From contig JAJPJD010000008.1 in the NCBI GenBank assembly GCA_021324355.1, forward strand, positions 1 to 47,120: a stretch of 47,120 nt of DNA, written 5' to 3'. The number at the start of each line of letters is the position of its first letter. Position 1 is the stretch's first letter. This stretch comes from Actinomycetota bacterium. GTDB taxonomy: Bacteria > Actinomycetota > Acidimicrobiia > Acidimicrobiales > RAAP-2. The notes below the pieces were generated by a model. That model saw only the letters and a list, made by a program, of their open reading frames with translations, was not told the DNA's origin and ran no database searches. Made by a program: the position numbers and the translations under genes. Of the stretch, positions 23,711-46,729 are shown piece by piece.

Positions 23711-24511
23711 ATGAGTTCGAGCGCGGTTCAGGGCTGGTTCGACTCCCACTGCCACGTCCAGGACCCCTACGAGGCCGACCTGTCGGTGCTCACGCGCGCT
23801 GCCGAGGCCGGCGTGACCGACGTGGTCTGCGTGGGCACCGACGCCAGCTCCTCGGCCGCCGCGCTCGCCCTAGCCACCACCCCCCCGGCCACGGCGCCAC
23901 GGGTGTGGGCGACGGTCGGCCTCCACCCCCACGAGGCGTCGCGGGGGGTCGACGAGGTGGCCCGCCTCGTCGCTTCGGCCATGGCCGGCGAGCACCGGCC
24001 GGTCGCGCTGGGGGAGTGCGGTCTTGACTACTACTACGAGCACTCGCCCCGAGAGATCCAGCGGGAGGTCTTCGCGGCCCAGGTCGCCCTGGCCATCGAG
24101 CACGACTTGACCCTGGTCATCCACGCCCGGGCCGCCTGGGACGACCTCTTCGACATCCTGGCGGCCGAGGGGCTGCCCGACCGGGCGGTCCTGCACTGCT
24201 TCACCGGTGGGCCCCAGGAGGCCCGCCGGTGCCTCGACGCCGGGCTCTACGTCTCGTTCAGCGGGATCGTCACGTTCAAGAACGCGCCCGAGGTCCGGGC
24301 GGCTGCCGACCTGGTCCCGCTGGACCGCCTCTTAGTGGAGACCGACAGCCCGTTCCTCGCCCCGGTCCCGCACCGAGGGGCGCGCAACGAGCCTGCCTTC
24401 GTCGCGGTGGTGGGGTCGTTCGTCGCCGAGCTGAAGGGGCTGGACCCCGCCGAACTGGCGGCCTCGAGCGGGCGCGCCGCGGTGGCCGCGTTCGCCCTCC
24501 CGCCCAACTGA
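23711..24511 (+). CDS. tatD: TatD-family metal-dependent deoxyribonuclease
   Basis: 266 residues, the family's normal length. A TIM-barrel metal hydrolase with 3'-5' exonuclease activity in characterised members. Metal ligands: DSHCHVQDP at the N-terminus, the Glu in LGECGLDYYY, IHARAAWDD, LHCFTGGPQ and the final Asp in LLVETDSPFL. It sits after metG, as in most bacteria. The Leu codon at 24332 is TTA, one of only two in-frame TTA codons I could find in the window's genes. Confidence 0.94.
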   Translation: MSSSAVQGWFDSHCHVQDPYEADLSVLTRAAEAGVTDVVCVGTDASSSAAALALATTPPATAPRVWATVGLHPHEASRGVDEVARLVASAMAGEHRPVALGECGLDYYYEHSPREIQREVFAAQVALAIEHDLTLVIHARAAWDDLFDILAAEGLPDRAVLHCFTGGPQEARRCLDAGLYVSFSGIVTFKNAPEVRAAADLVPLDRLLVETDSPFLAPVPHRGARNEPAFVAVVGSFVAELKGLDPAELAASSGRAAVAAFALPPN

Positions 24512-33976: not shown

Positions 33977-36900
33977 ATGACCGTGGACGTCGAAGCCGGG
34001 CCACTGGCCCCGTTGGCGCCGCTCGTGCGCTCCCACTCGGCCGTCGCGGCCATCGTGGGCCGGACCGACGCCACCCTCGCCGTCTCGGCCGCGGCGCGAC
34101 CCTTTGCCCTCGCTGGTCTGGCGCAGCTCTCCGAGCTCCGGCCGATGCTGGTGGTCACCCCGACGCTGGCCGATGCCGAGCGATTGGCCGAGGACCTCCG
34201 CTGCTTCGCTGGACCCGACGCGGTGGCGCTGCTCTTGCCCTGGGAGACCCTGCCGCTCGAGCGGGTGAGCCCCGACGTCCACACCATGGGTTCGCGGCTC
34301 GAGGTCCTGTGGCGCCTCTTCGGGTCCGAGCCGGTACCGGGCCGAGGCGAGCTGGCCATGGTGGTCGCCCCGGTGCGCGCCGTGCTGCAGCGGCTCGGCC
34401 CCTGGGCTGACGCAGCCCGGCCGGTGGTCGTGCGGCGGGGCCAGTCAGTCGATCGCGACGACCTGCTGGCGCGCCTCAGCGCGCTCGGCTACCGCCGGGA
34501 GCACCAGGTCGAGCACCGGGGCGAGCTCGCGGCACGCGGCGGGATCGTCGACGTCTTTCCCTCGACCGCCGACGACCCGATCCGGCTCGACCTGTTCGGC
34601 GACGAGGTGGACCGGCTGACCACCTTCGACGTGGCCGACCAGCGCGCCCGGACGCCGCTGGAGCAGGTGGCCATCTTCGGGTGCCGGGAGCTGGTTCCCA
34701 CCCCCGGGCTGCGAACCCGGGCCGCGGCGCTGGTCGGTCGGGGGCCGTTCAGTCGAGGGCAGTGGGAGCGGCTGGCCGACGGGGAGCTCTTCGATGGGAT
34801 GGAGGCCTGGTTGCCGTGGTTGTGCCCCGAGGAGGTCCTCCTTCCCGACCTGCTCGGGTCGGGGGCGCGGGTGGTCCTCACCGAGCCCCGCCGGTTGCGC
34901 GACCGGGCGCTCGAGGTCGTCGACGAGGAGGGGGCGCTCACCGAGACCCTGGCCAAGACCTGGGGAGCGGGTGCCGAGCCAGACCCTCTGCCCCGGCTGC
35001 ACCTGGGTTTCGAGCGGCTGCTGGCCCGGACCGAGGCCGCCGTGGTGTCGATGCCGGCGGTGGCCGACGCCCCCGAGACCCCGGCCCTGGCGGCCGGCGC
35101 GGTGCCGCCGGTCGCCGGCGACCCCGGACGGCTGGCCGAACAGGTGGTGGCGTGGGCAGGGCGGGGGTTCGCAGTGGTCGTCTGCACCTCGAGCCCGTTG
35201 GCCGCCCAGCGCGTCTCGGACCTGTTGTCAGGGGAGGGGGTGCAGGCCCCGGTGCTGCCCTCGGCTGAGACCAGGCCGGGGGTCGCGGTGGTGGTCGCCC
35301 CCCTCTCGGCGGGGTTCGTGCTGGAGGAGGCCAAGCTGGCGGTGGTGGCCGAGTCGGACGTGACCGGCCGGCGGGTGCCCCACCGGCGCCCCCGGCCTCG
35401 GTCCCGGCCGGCCGATGGGTTCTTCGACGACCTGGCCCCGGGGAGCTACGTGGTCCACCGCCAGCACGGGGTCGCTCGCTATGCCGGGGTCACCACCCGC
35501 ACCCTCGCCGGCACCACCCGTGACTACCTGGTCTTGGAGTTCCGGGGCAGTGACCGGCTGTACCTTCCGGTGGACCAGATCGATGCCGTCACCCCCTACA
35601 GCGGTGGCGAGACCCCCACCCTGTCCAAGATGGGCGGCGCCGACTGGCAGCGGACCCGGGCCCGGGCCCGGGCGGCGGCCGGCGAGGTCGCGGCCGGGCT
35701 GGTGGCGCTGTACCGCAGGCGGGCCACCATCGCCGGCCACGCCTTCAGCCCCGACACCCCGTGGCAGCGGGAGCTCGAAGCCTCGTTCCCCTACGCCGAG
35801 ACCCCCGACCAGCTGCGGGCGATCGACGAGGTGAAGCAGGACATGGAGTCGGACCGCCCGATGGACCGACTGGTCTGCGGCGACGTCGGCTTCGGCAAGA
35901 CCGAGGTGGCCCTGCGGGCGGTGTTCAAGGCGGTCCAGGACGGGAGGCAGGCAGCCGTCCTGGTGCCGACCACCTTGCTCGCCAGCCAGCATTTCGCGAC
36001 GTTCTCCGAGCGTTTCAAGGGCTTCCCGGTGCGAGTCGAGCTGCTGTCGCGGTTCCTTTCGCCGGCCCAGGCGTCGGAGGTCATCGACGGGCTGGCCGAC
36101 GGCTCGGTGGACGTGGTGGTGGCGACCCATCGGCTGCTGGCCGAGCGGGTCCGGTTCAAGCGCCTGGGGCTGCTCGTGGTCGACGAGGAGCAGCGCTTCG
36201 GGGTGACCCACAAGGAGGCGGTGAAGGCGATGAGCGCCGGGGTCGACGTGCTGACCCTGACCGCCAGCCCGATCCCTCGGACCCTGGAGATGGCGCTTAC
36301 CGGCATCCGCGACCTGTCGATGGTCAACACGCCGCCGGTCGACCGCCAGCCGATCCTGACCTACGTCGGCGAGGAGGACGAGGCGGCGGTGTCGGAGGCC
36401 ATCCGACGAGAGCTGCTCCGGGAGGGCCAGGTCTTCTACCTGCACAACCGGGTCGCCGACATCGAGGCAGTCGCCCGCCGCCTGCGACAGCTGGTCCCCG
36501 AGGCTCGGGTGGCGGTCGCGCACGGCCAGATGGACGAGGGCAGCCTCGAACAGGTGGTGCTCGACTTCTGGGACCAGAAGTACGACGTGCTGGTCTGCAC
36601 CACCATCATCGAGTCCGGCATCGACATGCCGACGGTCAACACCTTGGTGGTCGACCGGGCCGACCTGCTGGGGCTGGGCCAGCTGCACCAGATCCGAGGG
36701 CGGGTCGGCCGCGCCGGGGCGCGGGCCTACGCCTACTTCTTCCACCCGGCCTACCGGGCGCTGAGCGAGGCCGCCTACGAGCGGCTGCGGACCATCGGGG
36801 AGCACACCGAGCTGGGGTCGGGGTTCAAGATCGCGATGCGCGACCTGCAGATCCGAGGAGCTGGCAACCTGCTCGGCCGGGACCAGTCGGGGCACATCGC

Positions 36901-37465
36901 GGCGGTCGGCTACGACCTGTACGTCCAGATGGTCGCCGAGGCGGTGGCGGAGGCCAAGGGGGAACGGGAGGCCGAGCCGCCCAGCGTCTCGATCGATGTG
37001 CCCGGCGACGCCCACCTGCCGGCCGACTACGTCGAGGCCGAGGACGCTCGCCTGGAGGCCTACCGGCGGCTCGCCGCCGCCCGGACCCGAGAGGAGGTCG
37101 ACGACCTCGGGCGCGAGTGGCTCGATCGGTACGGACCGCTCCCGGTGCCGGCCGAGGGGCTCCTCGAGCTGGCCCGGCTCCGGGCGACCTGCCTGCGACT
37201 GGGGGTGACCGAGGTGGCGGTGCTGGCCGGTCGGGCCGCCAGGCGTCGACCGGTGGCCCGAGTCACCGGGATCCGGTTGGCCCCGAGCGCCCAGGCACGC
37301 CTGCACCGCCTGAGCGCCGACGCCACCTACCGTGACCAGCTCAGCCAGCTGCTCGTCCCGCTGGCCGAGCCGGAGCGGGCAGCCCGTGACCTGCGCGTGC
37401 TCCTCGAGCGCTTGGTCCCTGAGACGGGGGAGGGGACCGGGGCCGGTAACATGCCGGGCGCGTGA
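33977..37465 (+). CDS. mfd: Transcription-repair coupling factor
   Basis: 1162 residues, full length. Mfd removes stalled RNA polymerase and recruits UvrA. A UvrB-like N-terminal module spans about residues 1-350 (LPWETLPLE, RGGIVDVFPSTADDPIRLD). The CarD-like polymerase-interaction domain begins near 484 (LAPGSYVVHRQHGVARYAG). Translocase motifs follow: Walker A GDVGFGKTEVA near 635, DEEQRFG near 737, TASPIPRTLEMAL, and RGRVGRAGARAYAY. The C-terminal regulatory domain ends near the stop. It starts 1 nt after pth and overlaps the SurA-like gene by 4 nt. Confidence 0.97.
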   Translation: MTVDVEAGPLAPLAPLVRSHSAVAAIVGRTDATLAVSAAARPFALAGLAQLSELRPMLVVTPTLADAERLAEDLRCFAGPDAVALLLPWETLPLERVSPDVHTMGSRLEVLWRLFGSEPVPGRGELAMVVAPVRAVLQRLGPWADAARPVVVRRGQSVDRDDLLARLSALGYRREHQVEHRGELAARGGIVDVFPSTADDPIRLDLFGDEVDRLTTFDVADQRARTPLEQVAIFGCRELVPTPGLRTRAAALVGRGPFSRGQWERLADGELFDGMEAWLPWLCPEEVLLPDLLGSGARVVLTEPRRLRDRALEVVDEEGALTETLAKTWGAGAEPDPLPRLHLGFERLLARTEAAVVSMPAVADAPETPALAAGAVPPVAGDPGRLAEQVVAWAGRGFAVVVCTSSPLAAQRVSDLLSGEGVQAPVLPSAETRPGVAVVVAPLSAGFVLEEAKLAVVAESDVTGRRVPHRRPRPRSRPADGFFDDLAPGSYVVHRQHGVARYAGVTTRTLAGTTRDYLVLEFRGSDRLYLPVDQIDAVTPYSGGETPTLSKMGGADWQRTRARARAAAGEVAAGLVALYRRRATIAGHAFSPDTPWQRELEASFPYAETPDQLRAIDEVKQDMESDRPMDRLVCGDVGFGKTEVALRAVFKAVQDGRQAAVLVPTTLLASQHFATFSERFKGFPVRVELLSRFLSPAQASEVIDGLADGSVDVVVATHRLLAERVRFKRLGLLVVDEEQRFGVTHKEAVKAMSAGVDVLTLTASPIPRTLEMALTGIRDLSMVNTPPVDRQPILTYVGEEDEAAVSEAIRRELLREGQVFYLHNRVADIEAVARRLRQLVPEARVAVAHGQMDEGSLEQVVLDFWDQKYDVLVCTTIIESGIDMPTVNTLVVDRADLLGLGQLHQIRGRVGRAGARAYAYFFHPAYRALSEAAYERLRTIGEHTELGSGFKIAMRDLQIRGAGNLLGRDQSGHIAAVGYDLYVQMVAEAVAEAKGEREAEPPSVSIDVPGDAHLPADYVEAEDARLEAYRRLAAARTREEVDDLGREWLDRYGPLPVPAEGLLELARLRATCLRLGVTEVAVLAGRAARRRPVARVTGIRLAPSAQARLHRLSADATYRDQLSQLLVPLAEPERAARDLRVLLERLVPETGEGTGAGNMPGA

Positions 37466-38559
37466 GGCGGCACCCCCTTGTTCTCGGCGCCCTCGCCGTC
37501 GTGCTCGCGGCCGGCGCCGTGGTCGCCGCCGGATCCTTCTCGGTGCCCAGCCAGGCCGCGACCGTCAACGGGGTGTCGATCAGCCGGGCGACACTGGACG
37601 CCCAGCTGGAGGCGATCGCCGACGACGCCGCCTTCAGCTGCTACCTGGCGGCGTCGGTGGCGGTCCGCTCGGGCGGCCTGGCCACCCTGCCGTCGATCAG
37701 CGGCAGCGCCACGTCGACGTTCGACACCGCGTTCGTCGACTTCTGGTTGAGTCAGCAGGTCGACGACCTGCTGATCGAGGGCCTGGCGGCGCGCCAGCAC
37801 CTGGCGATCGACACCGGGGCGCTGGACGCCGGGCGGGCCGACCTCACGAGCTCGATCAACGCGGTCCTGGGGGACGCCGCCGCCAGCAGCGGCCAGGGCG
37901 CGCTGTGCGCGCCGAGCGGCGCCGCGGTGGTCTCCACGCTGCCCCCGAGCATGGTTGCCACCCTGGTCAGGGCCCAGGCCGCAGCCGACCTGGTCCTCTC
38001 GCACGCCGCCGGCTACGGCCTCGGGCCCTCCGAGTTGGCCCGGTACTTCGTGGGCCACCAGGCCCAGTTCCAGACCATCTGTTTGAGCGCCATCCAGGTC
38101 GCGACCCAGGCGACGGCGTCGGCGGTGCGGGCAGCCATCGAGGCCGGCGAGCCGTTCGCGGCGGCCGCCACGGCGGACTCGACCGACCCCACCAGCGCGG
38201 CCGCTGGCGGCGCGCTGGGGTGCTACCAGGCTGACGACGGCGCCTACCCGACCGTGGCCGCCGATGTGAAGGGTCTCGCGGTCGGCCAGGTCAGCCAGCC
38301 GGTGGCCAACAACGGGTCCTACCTCCTGCTGCTGGTGACCGGCGTCAAGCCGGCCTCCTTCGATTCGGTGATCCCGGCCGTGCGCGAGGCCGTCCTCTCG
38401 ATGGGGTCGGCCAAGGCCAGCGCCGAGCTCCGGGCCTTCACCGAGCGGGCCTCGGTCGTTGTCGACCCTCGGTACGGCCGGTGGTCGTCGCGCTCGGGCG
38501 TGGGCATCGCCCCGCCGGCCACCCCCCGCCCGGCCGACCTGCTCGACCCGGGCGTGTGA
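37462..38559 (+). CDS. Exported SurA/parvulin-like peptidyl-prolyl isomerase protein
   Basis: 365 residues. A signal peptide is visible (RRHPLVLGALAVVLAAGAVV, likely cleavage after SVPSQA); no lipobox Cys, unlike related lipoproteins in other actinobacteria. A SurA-N-like helical region begins ATVNGVSISRATLDAQLEAI. A degenerate PpiC-like domain spans about residues 190-295 (AVRAAIEAGEPFAAAATADS, GGALGCYQADDG, VGQVSQPVANNGSYLLLLV). The mfd-SurA-like-mazG order is common in actinobacteria. It probably acts as a chaperone at the outer face of the membrane. GTG overlaps the mfd stop, and TAACAT 9 nt upstream could give a separate promoter. Confidence 0.82.
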   Translation: MRRHPLVLGALAVVLAAGAVVAAGSFSVPSQAATVNGVSISRATLDAQLEAIADDAAFSCYLAASVAVRSGGLATLPSISGSATSTFDTAFVDFWLSQQVDDLLIEGLAARQHLAIDTGALDAGRADLTSSINAVLGDAAASSGQGALCAPSGAAVVSTLPPSMVATLVRAQAAADLVLSHAAGYGLGPSELARYFVGHQAQFQTICLSAIQVATQATASAVRAAIEAGEPFAAAATADSTDPTSAAAGGALGCYQADDGAYPTVAADVKGLAVGQVSQPVANNGSYLLLLVTGVKPASFDSVIPAVREAVLSMGSAKASAELRAFTERASVVVDPRYGRWSSRSGVGIAPPATPRPADLLDPGV

Positions 38560-39947
38560 GGGCGTCGGTGCTGGCACCGACGGTCACCGTCGTCGGGCTG
38601 GGGCCGGGCTCCCCCGAGCAGCTGCCCGAGGCGTCCCGTCGGGTGCTGCTCGGTGCCGACCGGGGCTTCCTGCGCACCGGGCGCCACCCCTCGGCTCGGG
38701 GGCTCGGCCACCTCCCGACCTTCGATCGGCTGTACGAGGAGGGCTCGGACTTCGACCAGCTCTACCGGCGGATCGTCGAGGCGCTGGTCGCCGCCGCTCG
38801 GGCCGAGGCGGCGGCGGGCCGGCGCGTCGTCTACGGGGTCCCCGGTTCGCCGCTGGTCGCGGAGGCCACGGTGGCGATGCTGCGCGCTGACCCCCGGGTG
38901 CGGCTGGAGGTGGTCCCAGCGCTCTCCTTCCTCGACCTGGCCTGGGCCGCCCTCGGCATCGACCCGGTCGCGGCCGGGGTCCAGCTGGTCGACGGGACCC
39001 GGTGCGAGGTCGAGCTGGCCGGCCGCACCGGCCCGTTCCTGGTCGCCCAGTGCTGGTCCAGAGCCGTCCTGTCGCGCCTCAAGCTGGCCGCGGGGTCGGG
39101 CACCGACGAGCCCGGCTCGGCGGTCCTCCTGCACCACCTGGGGCTCCCCGACGAGCAGGTGCTGGAGGTGCCCTGGCACGAGCTGGACCGGGCGCTCGAG
39201 CCCGACCAGCTCACCTCGGTGTTCGTCGCTGGCACCGGCGCCCCGGTGGCAGCCGAGATGGCCCAGCTCGACGAGCTGGTGCGGACGCTGCGGGAGCGCT
39301 GCCCGTGGGACCGAGAGCAGACCCATGCCTCGCTCACGCGCCACCTGGTGGAGGAGACCTACGAGGTCCTCGACGCGATCGACGAGTTGGACCGAGCCGA
39401 GGACCCCGAGCCTGCCGCCCGGGGCGCCGAGCACCTGGAAGAAGAGTTGGGCGACCTGCTGTTCCAGGTGTTCTTCCACGCCCGGCTGGCGGCCGAGGAG
39501 GGATGGTTCACCGTGGCCGACGTGGCCCGAGCCGTCCACGACAAGCTGGTCGGGCGCCACCCCCACGTCTTCGGTGACGCCGCGGCGGCCACGGCCGGGG
39601 AGGTCATGGCCAACTGGGAGGCCATCAAGGCGGCCGAGAAGGGTCGGACCTCGGTCACCGACGGGGTCCCGTCGGCACTGCCGGCGCTCCAGCTCGCCGC
39701 GGAGCTCGAGCGCAAGGCGCGCTCCCTCGGCTTGCCCGACCCGGCGCCGGACCACCGGGCGCGGGTGGAGCGGGCCTTGGACGCGTGGGCCGCGGCGCCC
39801 GGCCCGGACCACCTTGGTGATCTCCTCTACCAGGTGGCTGCCTGGGCCGCATCGGTCGGGGTCGACCCCGAGCAGGCCCTGCGATCCCGAGCCCAGGCCG
39901 CCCGGCGCCGGATCGTGGCCTACGAGCGCGAGCTCGGCACACGCTGA
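38556..39947 (+). CDS. mazG: MazG nucleotide pyrophosphohydrolase fused to a tetrapyrrole-methylase-like domain (YabN type)
   Basis: 463 residues. The N-terminal 220 residues are a tetrapyrrole-methylase fold (VTVVGLGPGSPEQLPEASRR; VVYGVPGSPLVAEATVAML), as in Bacillus YabN. The C-terminal half carries two MazG modules: LRERCPWDREQTHASLTRHL, EETYEVLDAID, EEELGDLLFQVFFHARLA, and later HLGDLLYQVAAWAASVGVD. MazG hydrolyses NTPs and damaged nucleotides to NMP and PPi; the role of the fused domain is not known. Start GTG at 38556 overlaps the SurA-like stop. Confidence 0.93.
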   Translation: MRASVLAPTVTVVGLGPGSPEQLPEASRRVLLGADRGFLRTGRHPSARGLGHLPTFDRLYEEGSDFDQLYRRIVEALVAAARAEAAAGRRVVYGVPGSPLVAEATVAMLRADPRVRLEVVPALSFLDLAWAALGIDPVAAGVQLVDGTRCEVELAGRTGPFLVAQCWSRAVLSRLKLAAGSGTDEPGSAVLLHHLGLPDEQVLEVPWHELDRALEPDQLTSVFVAGTGAPVAAEMAQLDELVRTLRERCPWDREQTHASLTRHLVEETYEVLDAIDELDRAEDPEPAARGAEHLEEELGDLLFQVFFHARLAAEEGWFTVADVARAVHDKLVGRHPHVFGDAAAATAGEVMANWEAIKAAEKGRTSVTDGVPSALPALQLAAELERKARSLGLPDPAPDHRARVERALDAWAAAPGPDHLGDLLYQVAAWAASVGVDPEQALRSRAQAARRRIVAYERELGTR

Positions 39948-39989
39948 GGTCCCAGCACGGCGTTCCCCGATCCGCCGGCGCGCAGTGGC

Positions 39990-41855
<1,866 letters not shown>

Positions 41856-41859
<4 letters not shown>

Positions 41860-42356
41860 GCGCCGCCCGCTTGCCGTCGGGCGGGGACGAAGGCGATCGG
41901 ACGGCAGTTGGCAGGCTCCTCGGTCGCCCCCCCCGGGGACCGTTCCGGGTGGTCCGCCGGCGGCCGGACGGCTCGCCGGTGGTGATCGAGAACGCGCCGA
42001 TCCTCGACGACGGCACCCCGATGCCGACCCGCTACTGGCTCGTCGACCCAGAGCTGCGGGACGCAGTGAGCCGGCTCGAGGCGGCCGGCGGGGTGCGCGC
42101 CGCGGCAGCGGCGGTGGACGCGGCCGAGCTCCGTGCGGCCCACCGGCGCTACGCCGAGTTGCGGGACGCCGCGATCGAACCGGGCCACCGCGGCCCGCGG
42201 CCTTCGGGGGGCGTGGGCGGCACCCGGGCCGGGGTGAAATGCCTCCATGCCCACCTGGCGTTCCTCCTGGCCGGGGGCGCAGATCCGGTGGGTCGCTGGA
42301 CCGCCGAGCGGGTGGCGCCGGTGCTGGCTCGCCTCGGGTTGCTCGAGGGGCGCTGA
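41856..42356 (+). CDS. DUF501 family protein
   Basis: 166 residues. The family core is visible: VGRLLGRPPRGPFRVVRR, VIENAPILDDGTPMPTRYWL, VSRLEAAGGVRAA and GTRAGVKCLHAHLAFLLAGG with the conserved Cys-Leu-His pattern, followed by DPVGRW. Function unknown; it is conserved between ftsB and ppx in actinobacteria, suggesting a link with division or phosphate/stringent metabolism. The start is TTG at 41856, within the ftsB stop (TTGA), implying translational coupling. Confidence 0.88.
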
Positions 42357-42357
42357 G

Positions 42358-43284
42358 GTGGCACCCGATCAGGCGCGCCCCGCGGTGGCCGCGCTCGACT
42401 GCGGGACCAACTCGACTCGGCTGCTCGTCGTCTCGGCTGGGCGCTCGCTGGAACGCCTCATGCGCATCACCCGGCTCGGCCAGGGGGTCGACGCCAGCGG
42501 CCGGCTCGATCCGGCCGCGGTGGCCCGGACCTTGGAGGTGCTGGCCGAGTACCGGCGGCGCATGGACGCCCACCACGTTGAACGGGCCCGGCTGGTGGCC
42601 ACCTCGGCGGTGCGCGATGCCCGCGACGGCGAGGAGTTCCTGGCCTTGGCGTCGGCCACGGTCGGGGTCGGCGCCGAGCTCTTAGACGGGGAGGCCGAGG
42701 GGGCCCTGGCGTTTGCCGGCGCCACCGCCGGCCTTGGGCTGGATCCGTCGCGCGCCGTGGTCGTTGACATCGGCGGGGGCTCCACCGAGCTGGTGGTCGG
42801 CGGTCGGGAGACCCGAGTGGTCTCCCTCCCGCTGGGTTGCGTCCGGCTGACCGAACGGTTCTTGGCCCACGACCCGCCGACCCCCGACGAGCTGGCGTCG
42901 GCCGCCCACTACGTGCGGGAGCAACTGGAGGCCGCCGTGGCCCGGCTGCCCGAACTGGCCGAGGGCGGGCGCACGCTCATCGGGCTGGCCGGCACGGTCT
43001 CGACCCTTGGCGCGCTCGCCCGAGGCCTGGCCCACGACGACCGGGACCGCATCCACCGCACGCGCCTGTCGGCGGCCGAGGTCGCCAGCTGGTGCGACCG
43101 GCTGGCGGCTGAGCCGTCCGATCGCCGGGCCCGACTGCCGGGGCTCGCCCCCGGGCGCGAGGACGTGATCGTGGGCGGGGTGCTGGTGCTGCGCGAGGTG
43201 ATGGAACGGTTCGGCTTCGAGGCCTGCACCGTGTCGGAGGCCGACCTGCTCGACGGGCTGGCCGCGACTCTCGAGGCGGCGTAG
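42358..43284 (+). CDS. Ppx/GppA family exopolyphosphatase
   Basis: 308 residues, the short single-catalytic-module form common in actinobacteria. It belongs to the ASKHA ATPase fold: VAALDCGTNSTRLLVVSAG, then LVATSAVRDARDGEEFL, VVVDIGGGSTELVVGG (phosphate loop), LPLGCVRLTERFL, and LIGLAGTVSTLGAL. These enzymes remove phosphate from polyphosphate or pppGpp. GTG is 1 nt after the DUF501 stop. The codon at 42682 is TTA (Leu), the second in-frame TTA found in the window. Confidence 0.92.
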   Translation: MAPDQARPAVAALDCGTNSTRLLVVSAGRSLERLMRITRLGQGVDASGRLDPAAVARTLEVLAEYRRRMDAHHVERARLVATSAVRDARDGEEFLALASATVGVGAELLDGEAEGALAFAGATAGLGLDPSRAVVVDIGGGSTELVVGGRETRVVSLPLGCVRLTERFLAHDPPTPDELASAAHYVREQLEAAVARLPELAEGGRTLIGLAGTVSTLGALARGLAHDDRDRIHRTRLSAAEVASWCDRLAAEPSDRRARLPGLAPGREDVIVGGVLVLREVMERFGFEACTVSEADLLDGLAATLEAA

Positions 43285-43332: not shown

Positions 43333-43989
43333 ATGCGCCCAATGAGGACCGGGAGGTCGTCGGCCCCTGAACCCCTGGAGCTGGCCGGCCGGCGCGTGAC
43401 GCTGCGGACGCTGTGCGAGGCGGACTACGACGCCTGGCACGAGATCCGGGTGCGGTGCCGGGACTGGCTGCTGCCATGGGAGCCTCGCCCGGCCGGGGCT
43501 CCGCCCCCCTCGGAGGATCGGGCCAGCTTTGCCGCCCGGTGCGCCCTGCGCGAGCGGGAGCGCCAGGTCGGTACCGGGTACGGCTTCGGGATCTTCGTCG
43601 GAGCCCGGCTGGTGGGCGAGCTCACCCTCTCGTCGGTCCAGCGCGGCCCGTTCCAGAGCGCCTCCATCGGCTATTGGATCGACCGGGACTGGGCCGGCCA
43701 GAGCCTGATGCCCGAGGCGGTGGTGGTCGCGCTGCGCTTCGCCTTCGAGACCCTCCAGCTCCACCGAGTCGAGGTCTCGATCATCCCTCGCAACCGAGCC
43801 AGCCGCCGGGTGGCCGAGAAGCTCGACCTGCGGCTGGAGGGGATCTCCGAGCGGTACTTGGAGATCGACGGCCGCTGGGAGGACCACGTCCGCTACGCGA
43901 TGACGGCCGAGGAGTGGCAGCAGCGGGGTCCCGAGCTGGTCTCGGCCTGGCTGGACGCCCCGGCTGGGGAGCAGGCCGAGCGGCGCTGA
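43333..43989 (+). CDS. GNAT acetyltransferase, RimJ/RimL-like
   Basis: 218 residues. GNAT fold: RRVTLRTLCEADYDAWHEIR at the start, SIGYWIDRDWAGQSLMPEAV (the acetyl-CoA loop is less regular than Q-x2-G-x-G/A), FAFETLQLHRVEVSIIPRN and ASRRVAEKLDLRLEGISERY. This block is typical of RimJ-type N-terminal protein acetyltransferases. A ribosomal-protein target is plausible but not shown. Start at ATG 43333, or a second ATG three codons later at 43342. It converges with the P450 gene 16 bp away. Confidence 0.88.
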   Translation: MRPMRTGRSSAPEPLELAGRRVTLRTLCEADYDAWHEIRVRCRDWLLPWEPRPAGAPPPSEDRASFAARCALRERERQVGTGYGFGIFVGARLVGELTLSSVQRGPFQSASIGYWIDRDWAGQSLMPEAVVVALRFAFETLQLHRVEVSIIPRNRASRRVAEKLDLRLEGISERYLEIDGRWEDHVRYAMTAEEWQQRGPELVSAWLDAPAGEQAERR

Positions 43990-46597: not shown

Positions 46598-46671
46598 GGG
46601 GGCGTAGCCCAAGAGGTAGAGGCAGGGCGCTTAAACCGCCCCGAGTGAGGGTTCGAATCCCTCCGCCCCCA
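46598..46671 (+). tRNA. Unusual class I-sized tRNA with anticodon TAA (Leu codon UUA)
   Basis: A 74-nt cloverleaf: acceptor GGGGGCG/CGCCCCC, D arm GCC..GGC with 3 good pairs, anticodon stem GGGCG/CGCCC, loop CTTAAAC (U33, anticodon TAA, A37), variable loop CGAGT of only 5 nt, T stem GAGGG/CCCTC with TTCGAAT, discriminator A. CCA is not encoded. The anticodon and A73 suit leucine, and the loop equals that of bldA-type tRNA-Leu, but tRNA-Leu normally has a long variable arm. The structure is intact, so it does not look like a pseudogene. Confidence 0.85.
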
Positions 46672-46673
46672 CT

Positions 46674-46729
46674 CCAGTTCCGGCGTCGCCGCGGGGCCTG
46701 CCCCTGACCTTCTCCCAGTTCCGGCGTCG
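46674..46729 (+). repeat. 15-bp direct repeat next to the tRNA
   Basis: CCAGTTCCGGCGTCG occurs at 46674-46688 and 46715-46729, 41 bp apart. The first copy begins 3 bp after the tRNA ends. Confidence 0.6.

Follow-up and report, generated by a model that had tools for sequence, protein, structure and literature searches.

One point of reference for the tRNA gene described here is bldA of Streptomyces, a class II tRNA-Leu(UAA). Bacterial or cytosolic leucine tRNAs are presented as class II in the accessible portions of PMC7609411 and PMC9976931, and those of PMC4810241 name no bacterial exception with a short arm. According to the accessible text of PMC9976931, the leucine determinants of E. coli are A73, the A15-U48 pair, G18G19 and A20a, and leucylation shows no correlation with how the long arm folds or with its sequence; LeuRS recognises the human mitochondrial tRNA-Leu(UUR), which has no long arm, with A14 and A73 serving as determinants. 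Bacterial leucine tRNAs without the arm appear in passing, at least in the parts of these papers that are available: a Mycobacterium tRNA cluster includes a short-loop tRNA-Leu(TAG) (PMC6582537), and the tRNA-Leu-2, 3 and 5 of M. tuberculosis are singled out as especially long-looped (PMC11541572), which implies that the other tRNA-Leu of this species are not long. In humans, a tRNA-Leu(CAA) gene devoid of the long arm scores as tRNA-Met (PMC8450103, in part). A search of the open literature, with subscription journals and preprints outside its scope, found no systematic account of short tRNA-Leu.

The tRNA analysed here shares with class II tRNA-Leu(UAA) the anticodon, A73, A14, A15-U48 and G18G19, but has no long variable arm (10 nt or more in class II), is 74 nt rather than 83-89 nt long, and carries A9 and a C13.A22 mismatch in place of G9 and a G13-type mismatch. 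Its likeness to the human mitochondrial tRNA-Leu(UUR) consists in the missing long arm, A73 and A14, whereas the latter is organellar and charged by a mitochondrial LeuRS; with the Mycobacterium tRNA-Leu(TAG) of PMC6582537, the shared feature described there is the short loop.

An intact class I-bodied tRNA gene conserved in the family

The window, that is, the whole stretch of 47,120 nucleotides that was analysed, is contig C47 of a 2.45-Mb draft genome (G000; 64 contigs, 95.96% complete). The tRNA gene and its parts are the following.

46598-46671, plus strand: gene for a class I-sized tRNA-Leu(UAA); 74 nt with A73 counted, no encoded CCA
46607-46624, plus strand: D arm, with A14 at 46611, A15 at 46612, the C13.A22 mismatch at 46610/46620, and G18G19
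46632-46634, plus strand: anticodon UAA, in the loop CUUAAAC (46630-46636)
46642-46646, plus strand: 5-nt variable loop CGAGU, with U48 at 46646
46671, plus strand: discriminator A73

The Rfam tRNA model matches 46598-46671 with 60.4 bits (E 1e-10; gathering score 29), and ARAGORN calls a tRNA-Leu(taa) on the plus strand at 46598-46672, the final base being one past the discriminator; ARAGORN names tRNAs by the anticodon alone, so that its 'Leu' is no evidence of identity. The acceptor stem (GGGGGCG/CGCCCCC), the D stem (GCC/GGC plus the C13.A22 mismatch), the anticodon stem (GGGCG/CGCCC) and the T stem (GAGGG/CCCUC) can all be read from the sequence. Judged by its sequence, this tRNA is intact and looks like a working one, and the intact cloverleaf, UAA anticodon and 5-nt variable loop described in the earlier note agree with the program calls and with the sequence as read. 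A scan that used only the sigma-70 consensus found no such promoter and no terminator near the gene. Directly 3' of the tRNA, a 17-base stretch, CTCCAGTTCCGGCGTCG, is repeated about 40 bases further on with one extra C (46672-46729; seen by eye), and two head-to-tail copies of a 20-base unit, GGTCGATCGTTCCCGAGTAG, lie close to the contig end (46788-46827).

Conservation was assessed by blastn in a panel of 100 genomes, namely G000 and 99 relatives (60 of the same family and 39 others of the order). Copies with 83-95% identity (E < 1e-12) are present in 57 of the 60 same-family genomes, which makes the gene more than a chance resemblance; no match was obtained in G016 or G021, and that in G044 is limited to a 26-base fragment. 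In eight of the 39 other genomes of the order, the match extends over 73-74 bases (E < 1e-11). The mean identity among 24 family copies is 93% within the tRNA, against 28% in the 60 bases upstream and 26% downstream. All 30 loci fetched from the blastn matches, the window copy included, are called as tRNA-Leu(taa) of class I size. The variable loop is 5 nt long in each of the 29 distinct family sequences, in which A14, A15-U48, A73 and C13.A22 are also invariant; these sequences were mostly found by blastn, so that the C13.A22 motif is for the most part not imposed on this set.

Probable leucine identity and the meaning of UUA

Every one of the 44 tRNAs that the Rfam model finds in G000 was inspected. 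The class II leucine tRNAs among them have the anticodons CAA, CAG, GAG and UAG, and UAA is present in the short tRNA only. Whether the genome has another, long-arm tRNA-Leu(UAA) is a question that the earlier note had raised; there is none among the 44 tRNAs, and a missed copy has some room in a 96%-complete draft. The long-arm UAA pattern is likewise found in none of the 61 family genomes, G000 included, an absence that carries less weight than full tRNA lists such as those of G000 and Mycolicibacterium sediminis. Thus, the short tRNA appears to be the sole UUA reader of G000.

The tRNA has A14, A15-U48, G18G19 and A73, which are published leucine determinants (PMC9976931, accessible sections), and A73, which the earlier note matched to leucine identity, is present in all 29 distinct family sequences. 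All four class II leucine tRNAs of G000 have A14, A15-U48 and A73 as well. Among the 36 class I-sized tRNAs of this genome, all four bases of the set are combined only in the window tRNA and in tRNA-Lys(CUU), and hence they are not unique to leucine. LeuRS is represented in G000 by one match above the curated cut-off, which covers positions 1-841 of the 843 of the profile. Because bacterial LeuRS can dispense with the long arm and reads A73, A14, A15-U48 and the corner formed by G18G19, this single full-length enzyme would charge the short tRNA with leucine, and the charged tRNA would then decode UUA and perhaps, by wobble, also UUG.

The alternative that the tRNA carries another amino acid and that UUA is recoded in this lineage bears directly on the codon itself. 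The protein-coding genes of the window that matter here and for the gene neighbourhood are listed below; the Pfam scan covered 16 window proteins.

23711-24511, plus strand: TatD-family nuclease, UUA at residue 208 in the conserved RLLVETD motif
33977-37465, plus strand: mfd (TIGR00580), where the conserved neighbourhood that precedes the tRNA begins
40041-41333, plus strand: enolase, conserved neighbourhood
42247-43284, plus strand: Ppx/GppA phosphatase, conserved neighbourhood, UUA at residue 146
43333-43989, plus strand: GNAT acetyltransferase, conserved neighbourhood, weakly RimJ-like and under the curated cut-off

UUA accounts for two of the 13,273 codons in the 37 predicted genes of the window, which bears out its rarity as noted earlier; a rougher first gene set, which included a doubtful 1083-aa frame antisense to enolase that the recount leaves out, gave two of 12,766. 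This open frame (38322-41570, minus strand) has no family match, lies antisense to enolase and its neighbours, and is probably a high-GC artefact. Such rarity would make recoding easier to accommodate. The class I body of the tRNA and the occurrence of the same four identity bases in the tRNA-Lys(CUU) of G000 also speak for it. The meaning of the codon was examined in alignments of genes at the mfd and LeuRS loci and in their surroundings, taken from 24 family genomes and six others of the order (30 in total), a column being taken to have a majority if at least half of the residues from other codons agree. Of 125 family UUA sites, 97 fall in majority columns and 28 in columns without a majority; UUA is aligned with leucine in 87 of the 97, these columns not being independent of each other, and the remaining ten have majorities of R (three), S (two), F, A, I, V and G (one each). 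For comparison, TTG faces leucine in 650 of 750 columns, CTA faces leucine in 70 of 79, and ATA faces isoleucine in 20 of 42. Of the two UUA codons of the window, that at residue 208 of the TatD-family nuclease corresponds to the second leucine of RLLVETD, a leucine also in the three solved homologues shown; the second, at residue 146 of Ppx, is aligned with isoleucine in the three shown. Furthermore, only leucine anticodons occur among the 79 free-anticodon viral copies called as tRNAs, among the matches listed (see below). The codon test rejects recoding, which is contradicted by the aligned columns, by the viral anticodons and by the leucine determinants of the tRNA, and which we regard as extremely improbable. 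As far as aligned codons can tell, UUA still means leucine in this family.

A role outside translation was the third possibility raised in the earlier note. A purely non-translational role is unlikely given that the tRNA is apparently the only UUA reader, that it is conserved against its flanks, and that its pattern nearly excludes the long form. A regulatory role on top of translation, such as a timing of gene expression through rare UUA codons in the manner of bldA, a key regulator in Streptomyces (PMC4932002, in the part available), would fit the rarity of UUA, which is shared with Streptomyces; however, UUA is also present in ordinary genes, for example in mfd and LeuRS of other family members, and we consider such a role rather unlikely. 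With no long UAA form in sight, leucine determinants in place and UUA aligned with leucine, only the short tRNA-Leu among the three options is favoured by the sequences. The tRNA is therefore best read as a functional class I-bodied tRNA-Leu(UAA) with an N-N-A-G-U variable loop that very probably replaces the class II form and would be served by the ordinary LeuRS.

Short leucine tRNAs in phages, plasmids and other bacteria

The same scaffold is found well beyond this family. Matches to the 74-mer include two plasmid and 21 phage records, and the eight of these 23 that were inspected contain three short tRNA-Leu(UAA), four short tRNA-Leu(UAG) and one tRNA-Trp (phage MD18); phage records already label such genes tRNA-Leu. 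A motif scan of viral contigs gave at least 120 stretches with the UAA motif, and 79 of 80 loci examined are called tRNA-Leu(taa) by ARAGORN. With the anticodon left free, the viral motif again gave at least 120 stretches, and 79 of 80 loci are called tRNAs, all with leucine anticodons (UAA 30, UAG 28, CAA 17, GAG 2, AAG 1 and CAG 1, among the matches listed); the two viral sets overlap. Two of the 79 viral tRNA-Leu(taa) found with the UAA motif (L192 and L194; 81 and 83 positions in all) present the reverse mixture, a short-type D arm with a longer variable region.

In genome contigs, the UAA motif occurs in at least 118 stretches, and 78 of 80 loci examined are tRNAs of 73-76 nt, mostly with no other tRNA in the stretch examined. 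Among the matches listed, the record titles name Mycobacterium, Nocardia, Rhodococcus, Gordonia, Corynebacterium, Arthrobacter and others. Cyanobacteria account for three loci, which lie in tRNA arrays with over 20 members, and some records are titled as other phyla, so that this set is mainly rather than purely actinobacterial; three loci titled Acidimicrobiaceae or Acidimicrobiales (L267, L297 and L308) hold copies close to that of the window. The complete genome of Mycolicibacterium sediminis encodes 46 tRNAs, in which the leucine tRNAs with UAA and CAA are short and those with GAG, CAG and UAG are long. Its short tRNA-Leu(UAA) resembles that of the window in its class I body, in being a lone chromosomal gene and in being the only UAA reader of the genome, and the two genomes differ in tRNA-Leu(CAA), which is short in M. 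sediminis and long in G000. The short class I-bodied tRNA-Leu(CAA) of M. sediminis (L574, around 10240, and L493) is the only CAA leucine tRNA of that genome. The premise of the earlier note, in which UUA is served in bacteria by tRNA-Leu with the long arm, is thus not general, as seen from the short forms in genome contigs and in M. sediminis, and the short form is common in the viral and actinobacterial samples rather than a one-off.

The distinct sequences sampled, 63 mainly actinobacterial and 183 viral (repeated sequences and those with unparsed brackets left out), allow the identity bases to be compared. U48 is present in 63 of 63 and 177 of 183, respectively, and A73 in 63 of 63 and 181 of 183, neither base being imposed by the search pattern; A15-U48 is kept in all 29 family sequences, in all 63 of the former set and in 177 of the 183 viral ones. 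The patterns do impose C13, A14, A15 and A22, or most of them, and the D-arm motif is accordingly to a large extent imposed in the viral and actinobacterial sets. The acceptor, anticodon and T stems vary across the 63 and 183 sequences, with pairing mostly kept (88-100% per pair). The window tRNA fits this short group in its 4-6 nt variable loop with U48 (CGAGU) and in its D arm, UA-GCCC-AA..GG.AGAGGC with C13.A22. Compared with the short tRNA-Leu of phage and plasmid arrays, it shares the D-arm signature, the mostly N-N-A-G-U loop, A73 and a leucine anticodon, but differs in being a lone chromosomal gene that is fixed in the family and is apparently the only UUA reader, and in its acceptor and anticodon-arm sequence.

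The abundance of the scaffold in viral contigs (at least 120 stretches), its presence in phage and plasmid tRNA arrays and the short-loop tRNA-Leu(TAG) in the Mycobacterium tRNA cluster (PMC6582537, in part) could be taken to mean that the window gene came in recently with a phage or plasmid, or is the relic of an integration site, and contributes little to host translation. Such an origin is very improbable for a gene that is present in 57 of 60 family genomes at a conserved place downstream of mfd-eno-ppx, that is the only UAA-anticodon tRNA found in G000, whose 29 distinct family sequences all fall in a single clade (support 0.994), and whose 3' end has no second copy within the window.

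Probable exchange of long and short forms and its implications

Within the order, the strict long-arm UAA pattern was detected in 16 of the 39 other genomes. Long and short patterns are combined in none of the 100 genomes of the panel, with 10.6 expected (p 1.6e-9, a value that ignores relatedness). Among 296 genomes of the phylum, 70 match the short pattern and 109 the long one: 69 have the short only, 108 the long only, one has both against 25.8 expected (Fisher p 1.8e-15, again ignoring relatedness), and 118 match neither, which indicates that the patterns miss variants. The two UAA patterns nearly exclude each other. The short-type match of the one genome with both (G156) has another D arm and may derive from a mobile element.

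The gene neighbourhood connects the two forms. mfd and the tRNA are on one contig in 14 of 24 family genomes, with the tRNA 7.6-21 kb downstream of mfd and, in two of these genomes (G012 and G031), on the opposite strand; in the remaining ten, mfd and the tRNA are on different contigs or one of them was not found. The window and seven of these 14 genomes were mapped gene by gene and have the order mfd, enolase, DUF501, ppx, GNAT, tRNA-Leu(UAA), with a gap of 1-10 kb between GNAT and the tRNA in the family. Of the genomes with a long-arm UAA tRNA in other families of the order, five were examined, and three of them, from three families (G062, G071 and G093), have the same series followed, 7-11 kb past GNAT and in the same orientation, by a long-arm tRNA of 83-88 nt. 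In the other two, the long-arm tRNA is about 59 kb from mfd on its other side (G066) or on a different contig (G094). DUF501, ppx and GNAT precede a short tRNA in G087, and the GNAT gene is near a short one in G092; ppx and GNAT were not found in the stretches read for G066, G098 and two Mycolicibacterium loci. Since the long-arm gene occupies the same wider neighbourhood in three families, it is likely that one form took the place of the other close to a single ancestral site. The replacement could have occurred by loss of the arm, by gene conversion or by a swap with a phage-borne copy.

A tree was built from 348 distinct sequences of 349 kept from 352; with about 70 columns, it is weak, and the search pattern introduces some bias. 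In this tree, 270 of 271 short forms fall in one split of 272 (support 0.86) and all 42 long forms in a split of 44 (support 0.998). Outside the family, the highest identities to the window tRNA, counted over aligned positions, are those of a viral sequence (L184, 76.1%), of a long-arm tRNA from the same order (L103, 74.6%) and of one from a record titled Planctomycetota within the mainly actinobacterial set (L259, 73.2%). C38 is present in 28 and G31-C39 in all of the 29 family sequences, and both are shared with all 16 long forms of the order; other short UAA forms sampled mostly have A38 (55 of 63 mainly actinobacterial and 75 of 90 viral), combined in most of the mainly actinobacterial ones with A31-U39. 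These bases point to the long form of the order; GC pressure could explain them. The long-type tRNA-Leu(UAA) L103 (from G075) has a 13-nt variable region and a T stem identical to that of short family copies, and is a possible intermediate.

Altogether, the short tRNA-Leu(UAA) is a clearly real and hardly described variant that entails no change of the genetic code. A class I-bodied leucine tRNA that apparently reads UUA, and in one complete genome UUG too, lets the true requirements of LeuRS and the ribosome be tested in nature, and it offers a short leucine tRNA scaffold common to phages and their hosts; annotation filters based on isotype models could flag such sound tRNA genes as odd. A tentative and rather less probable extension is that the leucine tRNAs with a class I body all belong to a single old lineage that has moved between phages and bacteria and has repeatedly displaced the class II UUA gene and, in M. 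sediminis, the UUG gene too. If so, a possible advantage would be that toxins or nucleases which hold on to the variable arm of class II tRNAs are evaded, and the long and short tRNA-Leu would be freely exchangeable parts.
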